The position numbers and the translations under genes were made by a program. This document shows positions 9,433 to 29,693 of a DNA stretch of 64,000 nucleotides, one piece after another; the first letter of the stretch is position 1; each line of letters begins with the position of its first letter. The notes beneath the pieces were generated by a model that worked only from the letters and a program-made list of their open reading frames with translations, was not told the origin of the DNA and made no database searches. Origin of the DNA: an uncultured Pseudomonadota bacterium (GTDB taxonomy: Bacteria > Pseudomonadota > Gammaproteobacteria > Xanthomonadales > Wenzhouxiangellaceae); contig CAKZPB010000136.1 of assembly GCA_937138395.1 (NCBI GenBank), positions 1-64,000 on the forward strand, given 5' to 3'.

Positions 9433-12069
9433 TTGAAACTGAGAACCGTCACCTGGCTGATCGTCACGGCGTCTGCCGTTGCGCTGCTGGGCGGGCTGTT
9501 CATCGGCTATACCTCATGGGCCGACATTCAGCGGGGTACAGTGCGCGCTGACGAAGTCGGGCAACTGCACAACGAGTACCAGCGAATTCGGCTGGCCCTG
9601 GAAGATGCGGTGCTGGTTGAGCGAACGCCGGATGCGATTACTCCGGTCCTTGCCAAACTGCGGTCATTGGTTGATCCTTCAAGATCCGGTTTCCATTTCA
9701 ATACCGATATTGAAGACCTGATGCAGTCATTGATCTCGGCGGTCGAGGGTATTCAGCAGGACCTGCAAAACAATCCTGCGGCAACCATGCAAACCTCACT
9801 CGAACTGCTCGTTGACGAACGTGTCATTCGTCGCTTGGACGCAGAACTGCAGTCCAATCTTCTCGCCAGTGAGCAGGCAGCGATGCAAACCTTCCAGGAC
9901 AACTTTCGACAGGATTTGAGCAGGCTGGTCCTCGCGGTGATCGCGCTTGGGCTGCTGATGCTGATCAACGCGGTGGTGATATTCAAACGAACCCGCGGTC
10001 CGTTGGACACCCTGATGAGCGGTATCCATCAGATTGGCAAAACAGACAGCCCGAGCCCGGAGCTCATCGAGCTGAGCACGCGCGATGAATTCGGCCTATT
10101 GGCGCAGGCGATCAATTCGATGAATGGTCGATTGTTCGAACAACGTAACGAACTGCTCGAATCTCAAACCCGCTTTGATGAGCTGGCAGAAACCATTGAC
10201 GACCTGTTCTGGATTTTTGATGTTGAAAACAATCAGGCCCTGTACCTGAGCCCGGCCTTTGAACAACTGTATGGATTCAATCCCGACCCGGCCGATCTCA
10301 ATCCAGCGTACTGGGAGGCGCATATACCGGAAAAAGATATTCCAGCCTATCGGGATTACATCCAGGGCTGGAGCAAGGGCAATAGCGAGGGCAAGTATCG
10401 ATTTACGCGACCGGATGGTGAAACCATCTGGGTGCAGGATAAAGCCTATGGTGTACATGACGCCGACGGCACATTGGTCCGAATGGTGGGTATTGCACGA
10501 AACATCACTGCCCAGGTCGAAGCCATCGAGGCGCTTGAACAACGCGATCGCCAGCAGGCCATTGTGTATGAGCTGGCTCATGAAATCAGCAATTCGCGAG
10601 AGGATCTGGTCGCTATTTGCGAACGCCTTGTTCATCGTTTACCCGAATTGCTGGATAAACATAGCGATGGTGCCGCTCGAATCACACTAATGAATGACCG
10701 GTTCCAGACTGACAACTGGGAACACGTTGAACAATCCATCGAATTCCCGATTGTGATTCAGGGTGCCGAAGAAGGTGTCGTTGAACTGGGGCTTCAGGAA
10801 ATGGATACAGAGCACGACACTGCGTTCTTTTCAAGCGAAGTCGAATCACTTGAGCTCGTTGCGACTCAATTGACCACCCTGCTGCACAACCGCCGAATCG
10901 AGTCCAGGCTATGGCAGGACGAAAAACTCAAAGCAGTAGGCGAACTGACCGGTGGCGTTGCGCATGATTTCAACAATCTCCTGACCGTGATACTGGGTAA
11001 TGCTGAAATGATTCGGGATGACATGGGAGAGCAGGACCCGAATCTTGATCTGATCGAGATGATCCTCCAAGCCTCTTCACATGCAGCCGATTTGACGGCC
11101 CGCTTGCTGGCCTTTGCGCGTCGCCAGCCGCTCAATCCCGAGACCGTCGAACTGAACGCATTGATCGAGGAAATGGCGCCAATCATACGGCGAACGCTGG
11201 GTGAAACCATCGACGTCAACATCAAACTCGAACCCAATCTCTGGGCCAGCCGGATCGATCGAACGCAGCTGAGCGCCGCCTTATTGAATCTGTGCATCAA
11301 CGGTCGCGATGCCATGACCGATGGCGGGTCCTTGTTTATCGAAACAGTCAATCAGACGGTTTCCGAAGAGGAAGCCGATGAGTTCCTGGATCTCGCATCC
11401 GGCGACTACGCAGTAATTTCCGTAACCGACGATGGCGAGGGTATCCCTGACGATGTTCTGCAGCATGTGTTCGAGCCCTTCTACACCACCAAACCGAAAG
11501 CGGCTGGAACGGGACTGGGGCTGTCGATGGTCTACGGGTTTACCAAGCAGTCCGGCGGCAATGTCACGATTTATTCCGAGCCGGAAAAGGGCACAACCCT
11601 GCGGCTGTATCTTCCGCGGACCGAGCAAAGCGGAGACGTGCAAACGGCTGGCGACCCCGGCGAATTCATTGCCGAAGGCATGAGATGCCTGCTGGTCGAG
11701 GATGATGCGCTGGTCCGCTCTTACACCGAACGACTGCTCAAACGGATGGGCTTCGAAGTAATCAGCGCGAAAGATGCCGACCAGGCACTTGAAATTTATT
11801 CTCGCGAATCGGAGTTCGATCTGTTGTTGACCGACGTGGTCATGCCCGGTTCCATGGACGGTATTGCACTCGGCGATTGCGTGCGCCAACAAAATAAACG
11901 TATACTGATACTGTATATGTCAGGCTACACGCGTGACCGGTTCTCCAAGAAAAAAGAGCTGGAACCGGATGCCATCTTGTTGAACAAGCCGTTTCGGCGT
12001 GGCGAGCTTGTAAGTGCCTTGCAGCAAGTCTGGAGCAACCAAAGACCCACCTTATCTGCAGACCGATAG
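9433..12069 (+). CDS. PAS-containing hybrid sensor histidine kinase with C-terminal receiver domain
   Basis: TTG start; two TM segments; PAS (FDELAETIDDLFWIFDVENNQALYLSPAFEQLYGF); H-box GGVAHDFNNLLTVILGN; ATPase DDGEGIPDDVLQHVFEPFYTTKPKAAGTGLGLSMVYGF; REC LLVEDDALVRSYTERLL...LLLTDVVMPG. Confidence 0.95.
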   Translation: MKLRTVTWLIVTASAVALLGGLFIGYTSWADIQRGTVRADEVGQLHNEYQRIRLALEDAVLVERTPDAITPVLAKLRSLVDPSRSGFHFNTDIEDLMQSLISAVEGIQQDLQNNPAATMQTSLELLVDERVIRRLDAELQSNLLASEQAAMQTFQDNFRQDLSRLVLAVIALGLLMLINAVVIFKRTRGPLDTLMSGIHQIGKTDSPSPELIELSTRDEFGLLAQAINSMNGRLFEQRNELLESQTRFDELAETIDDLFWIFDVENNQALYLSPAFEQLYGFNPDPADLNPAYWEAHIPEKDIPAYRDYIQGWSKGNSEGKYRFTRPDGETIWVQDKAYGVHDADGTLVRMVGIARNITAQVEAIEALEQRDRQQAIVYELAHEISNSREDLVAICERLVHRLPELLDKHSDGAARITLMNDRFQTDNWEHVEQSIEFPIVIQGAEEGVVELGLQEMDTEHDTAFFSSEVESLELVATQLTTLLHNRRIESRLWQDEKLKAVGELTGGVAHDFNNLLTVILGNAEMIRDDMGEQDPNLDLIEMILQASSHAADLTARLLAFARRQPLNPETVELNALIEEMAPIIRRTLGETIDVNIKLEPNLWASRIDRTQLSAALLNLCINGRDAMTDGGSLFIETVNQTVSEEEADEFLDLASGDYAVISVTDDGEGIPDDVLQHVFEPFYTTKPKAAGTGLGLSMVYGFTKQSGGNVTIYSEPEKGTTLRLYLPRTEQSGDVQTAGDPGEFIAEGMRCLLVEDDALVRSYTERLLKRMGFEVISAKDADQALEIYSRESEFDLLLTDVVMPGSMDGIALGDCVRQQNKRILILYMSGYTRDRFSKKKELEPDAILLNKPFRRGELVSALQQVWSNQRPTLSADR

Positions 12070-21020: not shown

Positions 21021-22088
21021 CTAACGGCTGCGCAGCAGCACCCATAGCGAAAAACCGGTCAGCAGTGCCGGCGGCAACACCGCAATCGGTGGTGCGGACA
21101 TATTTGCGACCAGGCCAAAGTACCCCAGCATGCTGGTCAGCAGATAATAGCCAAGGCCGATCCCGACTGCCAACACAACCTTCAAGCTGACCGCCCGGCT
21201 CTTCGTTGGCGTGGCACTCAGCGCTGTTGCAATCAAGACCATGCCCAGGCATGCCAGCGGAAGAGCAATCCGCTGCCACAGCACCAGTTCGAATTCACTG
21301 GCATCCCGGTCGCGCGCCTTCAAGGTTCCGACATAGGTCCACAAGTCCGTAAGCGGAAGGCTGACTGGAGGCTGTCTGAACAACTGCAGCTGTTGTGAAG
21401 TCAGAAATGACGCCCAGACCAGCTGCTCGATCGATTGAATCCGATCTTCGGTGCCCATGCCGTTCAGCTGCTTTACAACCACATCCTCGAGCAGCCATTC
21501 ATTTTCATTCGGTACCGCGCGATCGGCCTGGATGTGTCGAACAAGCTCCCCACGCTGATCGAACTGATAAATGTTGATCTGACCCGGCAGTTGGCCGGGC
21601 TCCATCAGCCCGACATTCATGAATTGGGTGTCCGATCGCACCCACAAACCATGCCAGGGATGCCAAAGACTGCTGTCACTCAAGGCTTCGCCGGCAAGCC
21701 GCTCAGGCGTTTGGTAGAGCACCGGAGCCAGGTATTGCAGTGCCACCAGTGCAATCAGTGCCACACCCAGACCGGGCAGCAGCGCCACCCGGGTGATTCG
21801 CATCAGCGATACGCCAGACGAACGCATGACCGTCAACTCTCGCTGAGCCTGCATCGACGACAACACCGTTGCAGTAGCGAGCACGGCGACAACCGGCAGG
21901 AGATCAATCAGGTCTACCGGTACCTGCATCAGCGCCTGCCAACCCGAAACGACCATCGAACCCTGAATATTGGACTGTCCGAGCCGTTCCAGCAACGCGA
22001 TCAGCCACAGTAGTGCGCCGATTGCCAGCAACATGACAGCATAGCCACGTGCCAGGCGAATCAGCAGATGCCGGGTCAGGATATTCAT
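21021..22088 (-). CDS. lptG: LPS export ABC transporter permease LptG
   Basis: MNILTRHLLIRLARGYAVMLLAIGALLWLIALLERLGQ... YjgP/YjgQ family; paired with LptF. Confidence 0.93.
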   Translation of the reverse strand: MNILTRHLLIRLARGYAVMLLAIGALLWLIALLERLGQSNIQGSMVVSGWQALMQVPVDLIDLLPVVAVLATATVLSSMQAQRELTVMRSSGVSLMRITRVALLPGLGVALIALVALQYLAPVLYQTPERLAGEALSDSSLWHPWHGLWVRSDTQFMNVGLMEPGQLPGQINIYQFDQRGELVRHIQADRAVPNENEWLLEDVVVKQLNGMGTEDRIQSIEQLVWASFLTSQQLQLFRQPPVSLPLTDLWTYVGTLKARDRDASEFELVLWQRIALPLACLGMVLIATALSATPTKSRAVSLKVVLAVGIGLGYYLLTSMLGYFGLVANMSAPPIAVLPPALLTGFSLWVLLRSR

Positions 22089-22091
22089 GAA

Positions 22092-23159
22092 TCAGATTGG
22101 CGCACCAGGCCCCCTCCAGCGCTGCCACAAGACACAGCCGAGTAGCGGAACGATTGCGATCGGCAGCCAGAACAAGCCCGGCCAGATCGGCATCGTGCCT
22201 GCATCCACACGATTGGCCAGCATACCGACCAGCGCAAAGTACACTGCAGCCAGCAGACTGGCGGAGACCACTTTGGCAGCCTGTCCGCGACGCGGATTGA
22301 TTCTACCGATTGCCAGTGCCGTCAAAGCCAGCAACAGCACTGAAATCGGACTCAGAGTCCGCCACTGCAGTTCGCCCCATTCCAGCGCACCGGGGTCGGT
22401 CATCAGATCGGACAGCGTCAAGGCGCGGCGAATACGATTCCGCTGGACTGGCGGCGGTGGGTCGAAGGTGACCAGCAGTTGTTCGGAATGGCTGATCAAA
22501 TCGGCATCGCCGCCAGTCTGTAAACGATAGGACCGTACGTTGCCGCTGAAAACCAGGCCAATGGAGCCATCGCCCTGGTCGTCCTGTTCGAGTCGTTCAG
22601 CCCTCAGCATGTTGCGGTAGTTTGGTAGCCGCTGATGGACCAGAACGTTTTCCAGTACCCGGCCGTTACGCTGCTCTGCAAAGATGACCCACTGCTCGTC
22701 GCCGATTTCAAACCGACCTGGCTCGACCCGGGACAAATCGACTTGGGCGACCAGTTCCCCTTCCATTGCATACAGTTTCTGGTACGCCCAGGGTCGAAAA
22801 ACATTCGATAACAACAGCACTGCAATCAAGCCGATCAATCCGACGATGACTACCGCTCGGACAATCGTGCTTCTGCCGAGCCCGGCTGCAGCGATCGCGG
22901 TCATTTCATAACCGCTCTGCAAACGCCCGAGCGCAATGACCAGGCCCAGCAAAATGGATGCCGGGATCAACACATCCAGAAACAAACCCAATCTCAGGCC
23001 GGTCAAGGCGGCCACCGCACCGACCGAGAGCCGATCGACGACCGCATCGGCAAGATAGCTGCTCATAAAAAATGCCAGCACAATCGCCAGAATCACGAAA
23101 AACACACCGAGGATCGGTCGCACAAGCTGGAACAGCAGGTAACGCTCGATTCGTTTCAT
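22092..23159 (-). CDS. lptF: LPS export ABC transporter permease LptF
   Basis: MKRIERYLLFQLVRPILGVFFVILAIVLAFFMSSYLADAV; YjgP/YjgQ family. Confidence 0.93.
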   Translation of the reverse strand: MKRIERYLLFQLVRPILGVFFVILAIVLAFFMSSYLADAVVDRLSVGAVAALTGLRLGLFLDVLIPASILLGLVIALGRLQSGYEMTAIAAAGLGRSTIVRAVVIVGLIGLIAVLLLSNVFRPWAYQKLYAMEGELVAQVDLSRVEPGRFEIGDEQWVIFAEQRNGRVLENVLVHQRLPNYRNMLRAERLEQDDQGDGSIGLVFSGNVRSYRLQTGGDADLISHSEQLLVTFDPPPPVQRNRIRRALTLSDLMTDPGALEWGELQWRTLSPISVLLLALTALAIGRINPRRGQAAKVVSASLLAAVYFALVGMLANRVDAGTMPIWPGLFWLPIAIVPLLGCVLWQRWRGPGAPI

Positions 23160-23953
23160 CTGCGATTGCGCTCAGCGAAGATGGTCTTGACCAGCGCCAG
23201 GTCTGCCGGCGAATCCACATCGACTGCAGCCTCCGGCCAGGCCAGCAATACCGGCCGTGCATACACACCGATCTGGCGCGAAAGTGCAGCAAAGGCCTGC
23301 TCCAGGCTGAGTCGTCCAGTCAGATAACGGAGCAGATTTCCAATCCCGATTCGCGCGACGATTTTCCAGGGCTGTTTGCGATTCTGCTCAAATGACTGCC
23401 AGGTTTCGGCAATGCTACGACCCCGCGCCGAGGTCACCAGAAACAGGTTGGTGCCGCAGACGCTGCGGTCGGAAAATCGATACCGGGTCCGACGATTGCC
23501 GGGAAAGCGATGCATGACCTCGTGATAGTCCACGACACCGACCCAAAGATCGACGTCCGGCTCGGCACTGGCTCGTTCAATCAACGGTTGGAACCAGTCC
23601 GCTTGGATCAACGGGTGATCGCCGGTCAGCACCAGCACCGCACGATTCGGATCATCGGACAGGTCATGAAAAGCAGCCGCCAGGCTGGCCGCCGGCCCTG
23701 CGGCTGGATCAACCCGTTGATACACCAGGCCGACATCGGCTGCCGTTTCATAGGCCGGCAGTGGATTGCAAACCAGACGCACCTGGTCAAGGCCGTCCAA
23801 TGCAGCCAGGCTATGCATGACATGCGTCAACATCGGTTTGCCGCCAATCGGCACCAGCACTTTTCCCTGGACCTGCGCTGTGACAGCCAGTGGATCTTCC
23901 GGTCCGCGATCTCCTGCCAGAACAACCGCGTCGACCCTGTCTGTGCACGTCAT
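23156..23953 (-). CDS. MobA-like NTP transferase family protein (atypical signature)
   Basis: DAVVLAGDRGPEDPLAVTAQVQGKVLVPIGGKPMLTHVMHSL...AVLVLTGDHPLI; its stop overlaps the lptF start (ATGA). Confidence 0.82.
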   Translation of the reverse strand: MTCTDRVDAVVLAGDRGPEDPLAVTAQVQGKVLVPIGGKPMLTHVMHSLAALDGLDQVRLVCNPLPAYETAADVGLVYQRVDPAAGPAASLAAAFHDLSDDPNRAVLVLTGDHPLIQADWFQPLIERASAEPDVDLWVGVVDYHEVMHRFPGNRRTRYRFSDRSVCGTNLFLVTSARGRSIAETWQSFEQNRKQPWKIVARIGIGNLLRYLTGRLSLEQAFAALSRQIGVYARPVLLAWPEAAVDVDSPADLALVKTIFAERNRR

Positions 23954-24512
23954 CGTGCCCTATGCTCCAAGCACAGCGGCAAGCACCCTGCCGCAACGAC
24001 CGATGGGCCGTGGCATCGGTGGAGCAAGCAGTTGAATCCATGAATGGGTACTTTCATTCAGTTGCATTGCCCAATGCTGTTCAAAGCAGTCAGGGTTAAC
24101 TGCGAGCAAATGGCGCCCGGTCATTGCTAAGACGTCATCTGCCAGCGCTGCATCAGGCAGGCTTTGACGATCATCGCAACGCAGCCCCTTCAACACGATA
24201 TGCACCCTCTGGTCATGCTGTTGACCGCGCCATCCCGATAGCGCTTGCAGTCATGCAGGCACATCGCAGCGCAGTTCATTGAGTCGAACCCTACCCGGCG
24301 GATCTGGGAGGGCCACCCCACCGGTTGGGTCTTTACCGATTGGACATGAACGATACTTGGAATAGGAATGTGCATTCAAGTGGCCAAAATGTGGTAAAAA
24401 AACGACGAGATGTGGTAAAAACACGTCGACAGGCACATTATGTAGGCAAATGCGGGTATATTGTTGTGATCTAAAAATTCAAATTAGTATTTTCTTTGTC
24501 ACGCCAGCCACT

Positions 24513-24518
24513 TATAAT
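24513..24518 (+). promoter_or_regulatory. consensus -10 element upstream of the sphingolipid-type operon
   Basis: TATAAT at 24513-24518 in an AT-rich leader; -35 weak (TTTTCT at 17-bp spacing). Confidence 0.5.
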
Positions 24519-24591: not shown

Positions 24592-26379
24592 TTGAGTATC
24601 TTACCAACCCCTACAAATAATTCGCTTCCGCTCAAAACTTCTGGCTATCAAAGTCTGGCTGAAGCCCTGGATTATGCAGCGCGTGGCACAACGGGCTGCA
24701 ATTTCTATAATGGCCGAGGTCACCTGGTCGAAGCACTGAGCTATGCCGAGCTTCGATCCAGCGCACTGCAACTGGCCAAGCGCTTGACCGGCCTGGGCCT
24801 GAAGCGCGGCAGCCGGATTGCGCTGGTTGCAGATACCCACCCCGGTTTTCACAAGATGTTCTTCGCCTGCCAATATGCAGGATTGGTCCCGGTACCGCTT
24901 CCGGCAGCCGTGCATCTCGGCGGCAAGAAAGCCTTTATCGAGCATCTTCGCGCACTACTGATTGATTGCGAAGCGCAGGCAGCCTATGCCTCGGAAGAAT
25001 TTGTTTCATTCCTGGATGAAGCTGTAACCGGTATGAACCTCGCGGCAAGTGGCACCCTGTCCACCTTCGATGCATTGCCGGCCACGGATCATCTACCTGA
25101 ACCACCTCAAGCTCACGAACTGGCGTATCTGCAATACACTTCTGGCAGCACGCGCTTCCCGCGCGGCACGATGATTACGCAGCGGGCCGTGCTGACCAAT
25201 CTGGCCGGAATACTTCAGTATGGTGTCCAGATCAGACGTGGCGATCGCTACATGTCCTGGCTGCCGTTCTACCATGACATGGGCCTGGTAGGCCTGATCC
25301 TGGGGCCCGTGGTGTCCCAGTTGTCTGTGGATTATCTTGGCACTCGTGAATTTGCCATGCGGCCCCGCTTGTGGCTCGAACTGATGTCACGCAACGAAGC
25401 CACCATTTCCTATGCGCCGCCGTTCGGTTTTGCGCTGGTCGCTCGACGCCTGCGCGATTCCGATCTTGAGCGATACGACCTATCAGCCTGGCGGGTTGCC
25501 GGTGTCGGCGCCGAAATGATTCGTCCGGGCTGGCTGAAACAGTTTGCAGCAAAACTTGACGGGGCCGGTTTTTCCGACAAGGCATTCCTGCCTTGCTACG
25601 GCATGGCCGAATGCTCATTGGCGATCAGCTTCGCCCCCCTGGCTCAGGGCTTGGACATTGATCGTCTCGACGCCGACATCCTGGCGAATGATCGCCATGC
25701 ACTCCCTGCGAACAGTGATTCAAATCGAGTCACTGAGTTTGTCAACTGCGGCCGGCCTCTACCCGATTATGAAGTCGAGATCCGCGGGCCTGACGGTTCG
25801 GTCATGCCGGAACGTCACTGCGGCACTATTTTTCTGCGTGGGCCCAGCGTCATGTCCGGATACTCCAACAATCCGGAAGCGACGCGCGAAGCACTGACCG
25901 AGGATGGCTGGCTGAATACCGGCGATGTGGGCTATCGTGCCGGTGATTCCCTGTTTATCACGGGCCGTTCCAAAGATCTCTTGATCATCAATGGTCGCAA
26001 TATCTGGCCACAGGATCTGGAAAACCTGGCCGAGCAGCAGGAAGAAGTCCGGCCTGAGGATTCATCCGCCTTCGCAATCGAAGCCGAAGATGGCACCGAA
26101 GTGGCCGTACTGGTCGTCCAGTGCCGCGAGCAGGATCCATTCCGCCAGGCCGACCTGGTTGAGCGCTTGAAACAGGGTATTCAGTCTGAATTCGGCATTG
26201 CCTGTCTGATTGAACTGGTGCCGCTGCACACACTGCCACGCACTTCATCGGGCAAGTTGTCGCGTAGCGGAACCCGGCTTGATTTCCTCAAGCGCAATCA
26301 GCTTGAGGATTCACAGGTACTCCCGCGTGAGCTGGTCAACCGAACGCCGCATACCCAGGCCCTGAATACCGTCGACTGA
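24592..26379 (+). CDS. fatty acyl-AMP ligase / acyl-ACP synthetase
   Basis: TTG start; LQYTSGSTRFPRGTMITQRAV, SWLPFYHDMGLVG, YGMAECSLAISFAPL, LNTGDVGYRAGDSLFITGRSKDLLIINGRNIWPQDLE: FAAL motifs. Confidence 0.93.
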   Translation: MSILPTPTNNSLPLKTSGYQSLAEALDYAARGTTGCNFYNGRGHLVEALSYAELRSSALQLAKRLTGLGLKRGSRIALVADTHPGFHKMFFACQYAGLVPVPLPAAVHLGGKKAFIEHLRALLIDCEAQAAYASEEFVSFLDEAVTGMNLAASGTLSTFDALPATDHLPEPPQAHELAYLQYTSGSTRFPRGTMITQRAVLTNLAGILQYGVQIRRGDRYMSWLPFYHDMGLVGLILGPVVSQLSVDYLGTREFAMRPRLWLELMSRNEATISYAPPFGFALVARRLRDSDLERYDLSAWRVAGVGAEMIRPGWLKQFAAKLDGAGFSDKAFLPCYGMAECSLAISFAPLAQGLDIDRLDADILANDRHALPANSDSNRVTEFVNCGRPLPDYEVEIRGPDGSVMPERHCGTIFLRGPSVMSGYSNNPEATREALTEDGWLNTGDVGYRAGDSLFITGRSKDLLIINGRNIWPQDLENLAEQQEEVRPEDSSAFAIEAEDGTEVAVLVVQCREQDPFRQADLVERLKQGIQSEFGIACLIELVPLHTLPRTSSGKLSRSGTRLDFLKRNQLEDSQVLPRELVNRTPHTQALNTVD

Positions 26380-27329
26380 TGAACCGCATAGCAGTGACCG
26401 GCGCGACCGGCTTTGTCGGCCGCGCAACGCTGCTTGCATTGCGCAACGCGTACCCCGATTGCCAAATTCGGGCGCTGGTCCGGAAACCCGATGAACGTTC
26501 GTTACCGTCGGTATTCGACTCGATTGATGTGATCGGAGGCGACCTGAGTCGGCAACCGGCACTCCAACTGCTGGCTGAAGACACGGATGTTGTGGTCCAC
26601 ATCGCAGCAGCCATTGCCGGCAATAATAAAGCGGACTTCGCGACAGCCAATATCGACGGCACCCAGCAACTGATCGCCGCGATCGGCCGCTGTGCACCAC
26701 AGGCTCATCTGGTTCATCTTTCATCGCTGGCTGCCCGCGAGCCGCATCTCTCCTGGTATGCAATGTCAAAATTGATGGCCGAGCAGGTCATCAGGGCCAG
26801 CGGAATTTCACACACCATTCTGCGCCCACCTGCAGTTTATGGGGCTGAAGACCCAGCGCTGGCCGATTTCTGGCGACTCTTGGCTCGAGGCTGGATGATC
26901 CGGCTGGGCCCAAAACAGGCCCGGTTTTCCCTGTTGCACGTGGACGACCTGGTTGAAACCATCCTGCGCGTGATTCAGATTCGGCCAGACGGTGCATTGA
27001 TGACCCTGCACGATGGCCACAGGGAAAGCGAGTCCGAATCGGGTTGGAGCTGGCCTGAACTGGCCTCGGTGGCTTCGGAACAGCGTGGGCGTCGGATACG
27101 CGCCGTTGGCATGCCGGCGCTATTGCTGAAAGGAATTGCCCAACTCAATCTGCAGCGGGCTCGCATGATGCGCTCAACGGCCATGCTCAGCCCGGGTAAA
27201 GTGCGCGAATTGATCCATCCGGATTGGGTCTGCGATAATGCTGATATTCAGGAAATGCTGAATTGGAGCCCTGCGACAACACTCGCACAACGTCTTGCTA
27301 CGCTACCAGGATGGAACACGGCACAATGA
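26379..27329 (+). CDS. NAD-dependent epimerase/dehydratase family protein, CerR-like candidate
   Basis: MNRIAVTGATGFVGRATLLAL; YAMSK catalytic motif; start overlaps the upstream stop (TGATG). Confidence 0.88.
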   Translation: MNRIAVTGATGFVGRATLLALRNAYPDCQIRALVRKPDERSLPSVFDSIDVIGGDLSRQPALQLLAEDTDVVVHIAAAIAGNNKADFATANIDGTQQLIAAIGRCAPQAHLVHLSSLAAREPHLSWYAMSKLMAEQVIRASGISHTILRPPAVYGAEDPALADFWRLLARGWMIRLGPKQARFSLLHVDDLVETILRVIQIRPDGALMTLHDGHRESESESGWSWPELASVASEQRGRRIRAVGMPALLLKGIAQLNLQRARMMRSTAMLSPGKVRELIHPDWVCDNADIQEMLNWSPATTLAQRLATLPGWNTAQ

Positions 27330-27577
27330 ATACTACTCAACAGAAGATTCGAGCTGCAATTGACGAAGCGGTACACGCATCGTTACCTGAATTGGGCGAG
27401 GTGGACTACAACGCCGCGCTGACCAGCGACATTGGACTGGATTCGGTGCAGGTCATGGATCTGGTCATGGAAATCGAAGATCGACTCGACCTGTCCATAC
27501 CAATCGAATTGCTTGCTGAGACGCAAACACTGGCTGACCTGGCTACACGGCTCGAACCGTTGCTGGAATCGAACTGA
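27326..27577 (+). CDS. acyl carrier protein
   Basis: 83 aa; DIGLDSVQVMDLVMEIEDRLDLSIPIELLAE with phosphopantetheine serine; ATGA overlap with the upstream gene. Confidence 0.94.
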   Translation: MNTTQQKIRAAIDEAVHASLPELGEVDYNAALTSDIGLDSVQVMDLVMEIEDRLDLSIPIELLAETQTLADLATRLEPLLESN

Positions 27578-27611
27578 GCCGTAAAGGCCGGACCATTATC
27601 GAGGGACTACC

Positions 27612-28796
27612 ATGAGCCTGTTTGAAAAGTTCAATGATCTTGCGCAGTCACGTGCCGGCCTTGGTGATCAGCACGTCGCGCCCGTCGCAACGCCGATTGA
27701 AAAGGTGTTTTCAGCGACTGAGGGCCAGATCAACGGGCAAAGAACGATCCTGGCGGGTACGAATAACTACCTGGGGCTGACGTTCAATCAGGAGGTGCTG
27801 AGCGCTGCGCATGCCGCGCTCGATGAATATGGCAGTGGAACTACCGGCTCACGCATGGCCAACGGCAGTTATCACGCGCACCAAAAGCTTGAACAAGAAT
27901 TGGCCGATGCATGGGGCTGGCCCGCAGCCATGGTCTTTTCCACCGGCTATCAGGCCAATCTGGCGACTATCTCCACGCTGGCCGGCAAGCAGGATTACCT
28001 GCTGCTCGACAGCGATTCCCATGCCAGCATCTATGACGGTGCCAAGCTCGGTCAGGCTCAGACCATCGTATTCAGACACAATGATCCGGCAAACCTGGAC
28101 CGTCGTCTGACGCGGCTCGGGGATGATGCCAAACGGGCGTTAATCGTGGTCGAAGGGCTCTATTCCATGCTGGGTGACCAACCGCCGCTCGAGGCTTTTA
28201 TCGAGATCAAGCGCAAGCACGGGGCCTGGCTGTTGCTGGATGAAGCGCATTCGTTCGGCGTCTTCGGCGAGCATGGGCTGGGTCTGGCCGAGGCACGACA
28301 TTGCATGGACGGCATTGATTTCGTGGTCGGCACATTCTCCAAGAGCCTTGCGGGCATTGGCGGATTCTGCGTCAGCCCACACGCTGAACTCGACCTGCTG
28401 CGACTGGCCGCACGCCCGTATATCTTTACCGCATCACCTTCGCCTGCCGTGATTGCGTCAACCCGAGCCGCTTTGAACCAGGTCATTCACGGGCAAGCGT
28501 TACGCGATTCCCTATGGCGCAACATCGAGCAACTGTATTCTGCCTTGAACCAGATGGGTTACAAGCTGGGTAGCGAACAGCCGGGCCCGGTGGCCGCAAT
28601 CATCCTGCCCGACCGGGAGTCCGCACTGGCCCACTGGTATGGTCTGCTCGAAGCCGGTGTCTATGCCAACCTGATGATTCCTCCGGCAACGCCAAAGGGG
28701 CTGAATCTGCTTCGGATCAGTCTGAGCGCAGCGCATTCGCCAGCGCAGGTTGACCAAATGATCGATGCCTTTGGCCGGCTCCAGGCAGCGGCTTGA
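27612..28796 (+). CDS. spt: serine palmitoyltransferase-like alpha-oxoamine synthase (PLP)
   Basis: GTNNYLGLTFNQEV...STGYQANLATISTLAGKQDYLLLDSDSHASIYDGAKLG...EGLYSMLGDQPPLEAF...LLDEAHSFGVFGEHG...VGTFSKSLAGIGGFCVSPHAELDLLRLAARPYIFTASPSP: closer to Sphingomonas SPT than to BioF/Kbl by motif. Confidence 0.9.
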   Translation: MSLFEKFNDLAQSRAGLGDQHVAPVATPIEKVFSATEGQINGQRTILAGTNNYLGLTFNQEVLSAAHAALDEYGSGTTGSRMANGSYHAHQKLEQELADAWGWPAAMVFSTGYQANLATISTLAGKQDYLLLDSDSHASIYDGAKLGQAQTIVFRHNDPANLDRRLTRLGDDAKRALIVVEGLYSMLGDQPPLEAFIEIKRKHGAWLLLDEAHSFGVFGEHGLGLAEARHCMDGIDFVVGTFSKSLAGIGGFCVSPHAELDLLRLAARPYIFTASPSPAVIASTRAALNQVIHGQALRDSLWRNIEQLYSALNQMGYKLGSEQPGPVAAIILPDRESALAHWYGLLEAGVYANLMIPPATPKGLNLLRISLSAAHSPAQVDQMIDAFGRLQAAA

Positions 28797-28991
28797 TCGG
28801 CGGACTCGGACGCATAACTGAAGGTTGTCTCCAGCCGGCAAGCTGAGATCGCCCGCTGCAGCAATTGTGCGAAACCGCTTTGAATCAGGCATGCAGCGCA
28901 TGGCCGTATCAAGGCAAACAACGAATTGCCCACATTTTGACTGGGCATGGGCGCTATCCTAGACGCTCATCCAAACCCTGATTCAATACAC

Positions 28992-29693
28992 ATGAATGTC
29001 CTTATTACCGGCAACTCCAGCGGCCTCGGCCTCGGTCTGACAGAAGCACTGCTCGATCGCGATGCGATCGTCTGGGGCCTGAGCCGCCGCGGCTGCCCGA
29101 TCAACAGCGACGGCCTGCGCGATCGACAGCATGACCTGGCCAATCTGAATACGCTGCCGGATGCACTGGAAGGCTTGCTTTCCGATTGTCTGCGGCTTGA
29201 CCTGGTCGTGTTGAATGCGGGCATCCTGGGTCGCATCCAGCCTTTTTCCGAGACTCACCTTGCCGATCTGGAACACCTGATCCGGATCAATGTGTGGGCC
29301 AATAAGCTGATCCTGGATTGGCTGATCGAACACCAGCTGCCAACGACTCAGGTCATCGCCATTTCATCCGGTGCCGGTCATAATCTGAGCTATGGTTGGG
29401 GTGCCTATGCATTATCCAAGTCCATGCTGAATGACATGATCCAGCTCTATGCACATGAAATGCCGGACACCCACCTGACCTCATTTGCGCCAGGCCTGGT
29501 GGATACCGACATGCAGGAGTATCTGTGCAACGAAGTCGATACCGATGAGTATCCTTCGGTCCAGAAATTGAAGGACGCGCGGGGCAGCAATGCGATGCCT
29601 GATGCCAAGACGGCCGCTTCGAACATACTGGATCTCATGGACGAGCTCAGGAAGGGCGACAGCGGGCAGTTTGTAGACATTCGAACGCTCTGA
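28992..29693 (+). CDS. SDR-family oxidoreductase
   Basis: MNVLITGNSSGLGLGLTEALLDRD...LNAGILG...YALSK. Confidence 0.9.
   Translation: MNVLITGNSSGLGLGLTEALLDRDAIVWGLSRRGCPINSDGLRDRQHDLANLNTLPDALEGLLSDCLRLDLVVLNAGILGRIQPFSETHLADLEHLIRINVWANKLILDWLIEHQLPTTQVIAISSGAGHNLSYGWGAYALSKSMLNDMIQLYAHEMPDTHLTSFAPGLVDTDMQEYLCNEVDTDEYPSVQKLKDARGSNAMPDAKTAASNILDLMDELRKGDSGQFVDIRTL

Follow-up and report, generated by a model that had tools for sequence, protein, structure and literature searches.

The 64,000-nt stretch of DNA analysed here (the window; positions 1 to 64,000 of contig CAKZPB010000136.1) comes from an uncultured gammaproteobacterium of the family Wenzhouxiangellaceae, whose draft genome (2.84 Mb in 142 contigs) has a completeness of 99.45% and a contamination of 0.25%. 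It carries the operon aasR-cerR-acpR-spt, predicted to serve sphingolipid synthesis, and, upstream of it, a divergent arm with two permease genes and a nucleotidyltransferase gene. Ceramide synthase (bCerS/YghO), which normally closes the pathway by adding the second fatty chain, is the product of cerS, and in the slot between the two arms, where relatives carry this gene, a degraded remnant of it is found. The operon and the intergenic features are as follows:

24592-26379, + strand: aasR, specialized synthetase of acyl-ACP (acyl carrier protein), fatty acyl-AMP ligase (FAAL) family (NF006624, 767.8 bits, cut-off 600)
26379-27329, + strand: cerR, SDR/epimerase-like ceramide reductase (PF01370, E 9.5e-22)
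27326-27577, + strand: acpR, specialized acyl carrier protein (PF00550, E 2.7e-11)
27612-28796, + strand: spt, serine palmitoyltransferase (SPT), beta/gamma type (NF047599, 587.3 bits, cut-off 500)
24513-24518, + strand: TATAAT-like -10 element, found by alignment inside the block TTATAATG-TCG-TT
24026-24316, - strand: cerS pseudogene remnant, C-terminal part of canonical bCerS/YghO (tblastn with same-genus CerS, 42 bits)
24313-24405, - strand: possible further frame-shifted piece of the cerS pseudogene, a weak 19-bit segment, not significant by itself, that matches the CerS residues directly preceding those of the main remnant

The existence of the four genes at 24592-28796 is confirmed, and they form an operon already known from proteobacteria of the alpha, beta and gamma classes (PMC9386255, PMC11324152); their order is kept across dozens of loci. 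This conservation, the SPT model score and the purifying selection described below place the observation well beyond chance. The first-pass annotation of the window had reported four co-directional open reading frames (ORFs) with TGATG and ATGA overlaps and a 34-nt gap, in the composition and order of Caulobacter. All of its coordinates are correct, and the arrangement matches both CC_1165-CC_1162 and the operon of Escherichia coli BL21. TGATG joins the end of aasR to cerR, ATGA the end of cerR to acpR, and the gap separates acpR from spt. The aasR gene has a TTG start, codes for 595 amino acids (aa) and is orthologous in position to CC_1165 and ECD_02851. In CerR both the GATGFVG and the YxxxK (WYAMSK) motifs are intact, and cerR matches the BL21 epimerase gene with 148 bits; AcpR has the phosphopantetheine site DSV (GLDSVQVMD). 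An SDR encoded at 28947-29693 was excluded from the operon, as it lies 2.7-4.6 kb from spt in the sister genomes.

Judged by family models and conserved residues, the 27612-28796 product is an SPT and not BioF, Kbl, HemA or CqsA. Among the NCBIfam models of alpha-oxoamine synthases it passes only the one for SPT (NF047599), failing those for bioF (317 bits against a cut-off of 426), Kbl (273 against 460), HemA (227 against 339) and the CqsA type (190 against 428), while the genome's own Kbl, which passes the Kbl model, is the product of a separate gene. The best matches among solved structures are Sphingomonas SPTs, with 419 bits (S. wittichii SPT, 2x8u) and 393 bits. K244, H137, D210, H213 and R368, invariant in 84 aligned sequences, are the equivalents of K265 (the lysine that binds pyridoxal 5'-phosphate, PLP), H159, D231, H234 and R390, whose roles in SPT have been described (PMC6148460). 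The SPT-type motifs quoted in the first-pass annotation are present. Placement with BioF or CqsA, which it had named as a refutation, is decided by the family models in favour of SPT, and its choice of SPT over BioF holds. The nearest named SPT locus is that of Wenzhouxiangella sp. XN79A (78% identity).

The enzyme does not belong to the Sphingomonas (alpha) subtype as far as Arg378 is concerned, a residue that NF047599 does not demand. This arginine binds the serine carboxylate in S. paucimobilis SPT (PMC3794620, PMC6148460); it is present in the two Sphingomonas enzymes of the alignment, and in 82 SPTs of the beta/gamma type the position is hydrophobic throughout and never Arg. Amino-acid selection may therefore differ across the whole beta/gamma subtype.

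In many other taxa, as in those relatives from the family for which the whole region is available, the nucleotidyltransferase gene and aasR flank a full-length YghO/cerS gene. Here this gap measures 639 bp and contains no cerS ORF, versus approximately 990-1460 bp with an intact cerS in the family loci. All same-genus CerS queries match one stretch of it, 24026-24316, which has the strand and slot expected for cerS but contains indels and a stop codon in frame. The remnant scores 42 bits, as compared with at most 29 bits among 1000 dinucleotide-preserving shuffles. A family-wide CerS hidden Markov model gave 0.7 bits, with several shuffles scoring higher; it was too insensitive for the purpose, and same-genus queries were needed. 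The remnant is 26-33% identical to the sister CerS proteins, whereas these share 55-77% among themselves in the same stretch, so the decay does not result from a single sequencing error. Intact cerS genes are present in 5/5 other genomes of the genus. By this sequence evidence, the native cerS is decayed to a pseudogene remnant in its usual slot.

The first-pass annotation had described 24592-28796 as a sphingoid or ceramide biosynthesis operon. Its SPT and its gene order stand, but the full ceramide gene set does not: aasR, cerR, acpR and spt are present, and cerS is not intact (24026-24316). The observation stopped short of the divergent arm (21021-23953) and of the remnant between the arms. 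Two other SPT loci (L049 and L069) also lack cerS between the nucleotidyltransferase gene and aasR, with gaps of 932 and 502 bp.

At the family level, SPT is present in 31 of 43 genomes, and 12 have none at the threshold used. Canonical cerS was found in all of the 30 other SPT-bearing genomes, either with 460-660 bits or as pieces at contig ends (G012, G038), and it is missing from the SPT-less ones, except for G021, which is 84% complete. The genome under study is the sole SPT-bearing exception: its only YghO-family gene scores 179 bits.

Every reading frame of the operon and the divergent arm is open. In comparison with three sister genomes, dN/dS is about 0.1-0.4 for all cases with an estimable dS, although dS is near saturation and these values are only a rough guide. 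On this measure, the operon genes are under purifying selection relative to the sister genomes. A sigma-70 scan upstream of aasR detected no promoter; the -10 block came from the alignment, in which it is conserved in 6/6 genomes of the genus. RNA folding of the intergenic region gave no signal (z 0.77). As the loss of cerS is old and the operon has been maintained, a substitute enzyme or a changed product seems likelier than recent decay. Upstream of aasR, at 24389-24430, there are also two adjacent 21-bp direct repeats (ATGTGGTAAAAA-ACG-CGA), whose core TGTGGTAAAA is absent from 16/16 relative loci checked; they may constitute a genome-specific regulator site.

The divergent YghO-family gene of the genome (G000:C119:17581-18705, 374 aa) is located on another contig, C119, directly after trpC. 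The trpE/G/D/C genes of this contig are 65-82% identical to those of four same-genus genomes and have the same order, so the contig belongs to the organism. After trpC, the sisters carry a different gene, aldehyde dehydrogenase-like when its sequence was read by eye, and a search of the 42 other family genomes revealed no gene of the C119 type. The closest homolog found (56% identity) comes from another gammaproteobacterium (G176), where it is the sole YghO-family gene and stands beside a nucleotidyltransferase gene inside a sphingolipid cluster with spt, lptF2, lptG2, acpR, cerR and aasR.

In the tree, the C119 gene falls outside the canonical gamma/beta/alpha CerS, in a separate clade (support 1.0) of Bacteroides, Phocaeicola, Prevotella, Chloroflexota and Oscillospiraceae proteins together with gammaproteobacterial ones. 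Two of these gammaproteobacteria (G152 and G269) and Prevotella have SPTs for which the Bacteroidota-type model gives the best score, and the Prevotella record contains one SPT and one YghO-family gene. The C119 gene is 34-36% identical to the Bacteroides/Prevotella members of the clade (L185, L198, L199). The published Bacteroides CerS, BF9343_4218, shares >50% identity with Prevotella copri proteins (PMC10865984), and the 57% identity between the Bacteroides and Prevotella members found here is in line with this, although it is no proof of identity with BF9343_4218. The Bacteroides/Prevotella GNAT clade probably represents the Bacteroidota ceramide synthase.

Several further observations concern the surroundings of such genes. 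Approximately 6 kb from the C119 acyltransferase gene, an ORF (11028-11825 of locus L189) has a histidine pattern, HDTYFYWTHRLMHH, that by eye resembles the fatty acid/sphingolipid hydroxylase superfamily. The G176 locus (L188, G176:C4:1-20000) is a mixed sphingolipid cluster, in which apparent lipid kinase-like and glycosyltransferase-like ORFs were seen by eye in addition to the divergent acyltransferase. A plasmid of Streptomyces sp. NBC_01001 (L200, 4769-8051) encodes an aminotransferase-fold enzyme, a YghO-family GNAT and an epimerase consecutively, possibly a sphingolipid-like operon on an actinomycete plasmid.

The divergent arm consists of three genes:

23156-23953, - strand: MobA-like nucleotidyltransferase (PF12804, E 6.8e-17), CC_1153-like by family and by its position next to cerS in relatives
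22092-23159, - strand: lptF2, second LptF permease of the genome (TIGR04407, 219.8 bits, below the cut-off of 230; PF03739, E 2.7e-50)
21021-22088, - strand: lptG2, second LptG permease of the genome (TIGR04408, 250.4 bits, cut-off 240)

The other LptF/LptG pair is encoded on contig C77. In relatives, the arrangement is lptG-lptF-nucleotidyltransferase-cerS, divergent from aasR-cerR-acpR-spt. The 23156-23953 protein shares 37% identity (132 bits) with the Roseomonas nucleotidyltransferase encoded next to cerS; CpgD was ruled out as its identity, since it reaches only 24 bits with the neighbouring Roseomonas phosphocholine cytidylyltransferase and the CC_1153-like match is better. The Roseomonas order, lptF-lptG-cerS-nucleotidyltransferase-phosphocholine cytidylyltransferase, parallels CC_1156-CC_1152; the second head-group step of Caulobacter depends on CC_1153.

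Based on these observations, we lean towards a functional sphingolipid locus, in which the native cerS has been displaced by a Bacteroidota-like ceramide synthase encoded on C119. All enzyme activities and products, as well as the replacement itself, are predicted here from the genes. AasR would load a fatty acid onto the dedicated carrier AcpR, and SPT would condense the acyl-AcpR with an amino acid, expected to be serine, into 3-oxo-sphinganine, whose keto group CerR would reduce. N-acylation would most likely be carried out by the divergent YghO-family acyltransferase, so that ceramide as the end product depends on this distant homolog elsewhere in the genome. Head-group synthesis probably involves the 23156-23953 nucleotidyltransferase, and LptF2/LptG2 would probably export the finished lipid.

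Several points weigh against such a displacement. The C119 protein shares only ~27-31% identity with canonical CerS and has other residues at near-invariant positions (e.g. Y150 for H and D302 for R), and therefore its substrate may differ. Its gene is unlinked to the sphingolipid locus, and homologs are carried by two plasmids, one from Oscillospiraceae and one from Chloroflexota, whose neighbouring genes include none for sphingolipids. The equation of the clade's Bacteroides gene with BF9343_4218 is putative, and I356 of the SPT stands at the Arg378 position of the Sphingomonas enzyme. The deviation of the C119 protein at nearly invariant CerS positions, together with a cerS pseudogene beside an operon that stays under selection, would also suit a natural ceramide-synthase null. 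The operon would then make single-chain sphingoid products (3-oxo-sphinganine, sphinganine or head-group derivatives) for export by LptF2/LptG2, and the C119 enzyme would be unrelated to them. We regard this as rather unlikely, though the most serious of the alternatives. It leaves as a coincidence that a gene absent from the 42 other family genomes has its closest relative inside a sphingolipid cluster, that of G176, a genome with no other YghO-family gene, and it does not account for the retention of CerR, LptF2 and LptG2, proteins that in Caulobacter function downstream of, or together with, ceramide.

A decay of the whole pathway, with cerS lost first and no sphingolipid produced, is in our opinion improbable. 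Loss does occur in the family, as shown by the 12 SPT-less genomes. However, the remnant has diverged much further than any of the genes around it, which indicates that the loss is old, while the other seven genes remain intact, their dN/dS lies in the above range, and the -10 block is conserved. Even less credence can be given to the PLP enzyme acting in a BioF/Kbl/CqsA-like pathway towards a signalling alpha-aminoketone. Membership of the same superfamily and the isoleucine in place of the carboxylate-binding Arg378, at a position that is never Arg in the beta/gamma type, would fit this proposal, but only the SPT equivalog model was passed, the equivalents of H159, D231, H234, K265 and R390 are all retained, and the context is that of aasR-cerR-acpR and lptFG2, plus cerS in relatives. 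Least probable of all, if only by a little, is an assembly artefact, i.e. an intact cerS lost or scrambled in assembly, or a contaminating C119 contig. A draft genome in 142 contigs leaves room for such errors; on the other hand, the window has no N, the changes in the remnant are scattered with no clean break, the completeness and contamination values given above speak against it, and the C119 trp genes fit the genus in sequence and order.

Displacement of cerS, the reading we prefer, sets the locus apart from otherwise closely similar systems. Caulobacter crescentus CC_1168-CC_1152 (PMC9386255, PMC11324152) has the same four-gene set in the same order (CC_1165-1162), with a second lptF/lptG pair and a nucleotidyltransferase gene nearby, and its region also includes cerS and the CPG genes; here, in contrast, only a pseudogene remnant is left of canonical cerS, the locus is adjoined by neither a head-group kinase gene nor a CpgD-like one, and the SPT is of the beta/gamma type. 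The E. coli BL21 island (ECD_02850-02854: yghO, followed by genes for FAAL, epimerase and ACP, then spt, lptG and lptF) shares the genes and their order, an adjoining second lptF/lptG pair and an SPT 53% identical to ours. However, BL21 has kept yghO (cerS), divergent from aasR, in the slot occupied here by the remnant, and its lptFG genes flank the operon on the opposite side. Wenzhouxiangella sp. XN79A and the other Wenzhouxiangellaceae loci (L015-L026) possess the same cluster, with SPTs 66-78% identical and the promoter block conserved within the genus, but those with the whole region have an intact canonical cerS, and none has the C119-type acyltransferase. In the Bacteroides/Prevotella clade, the GNAT is paired with a CFB-type SPT, unlike the beta/gamma-type SPT present here. 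In the literature searched, no paper on sphingolipids in Wenzhouxiangella was found. The operon adds another member to a known kind; what varies here is the loss of the native cerS, together with its probable substitution by a Bacteroidota-like enzyme.

SPT and canonical cerS are otherwise inherited as a pair in the family, and their separation in this organism constitutes a natural experiment on the need for the second acylation. The same exception also tests whether the divergent, Bacteroides-like YghO family is a true ceramide synthase. It calls for caution as well, as the presence of SPT and CerR in a genome does not by itself show that ceramide is made by the canonical route.

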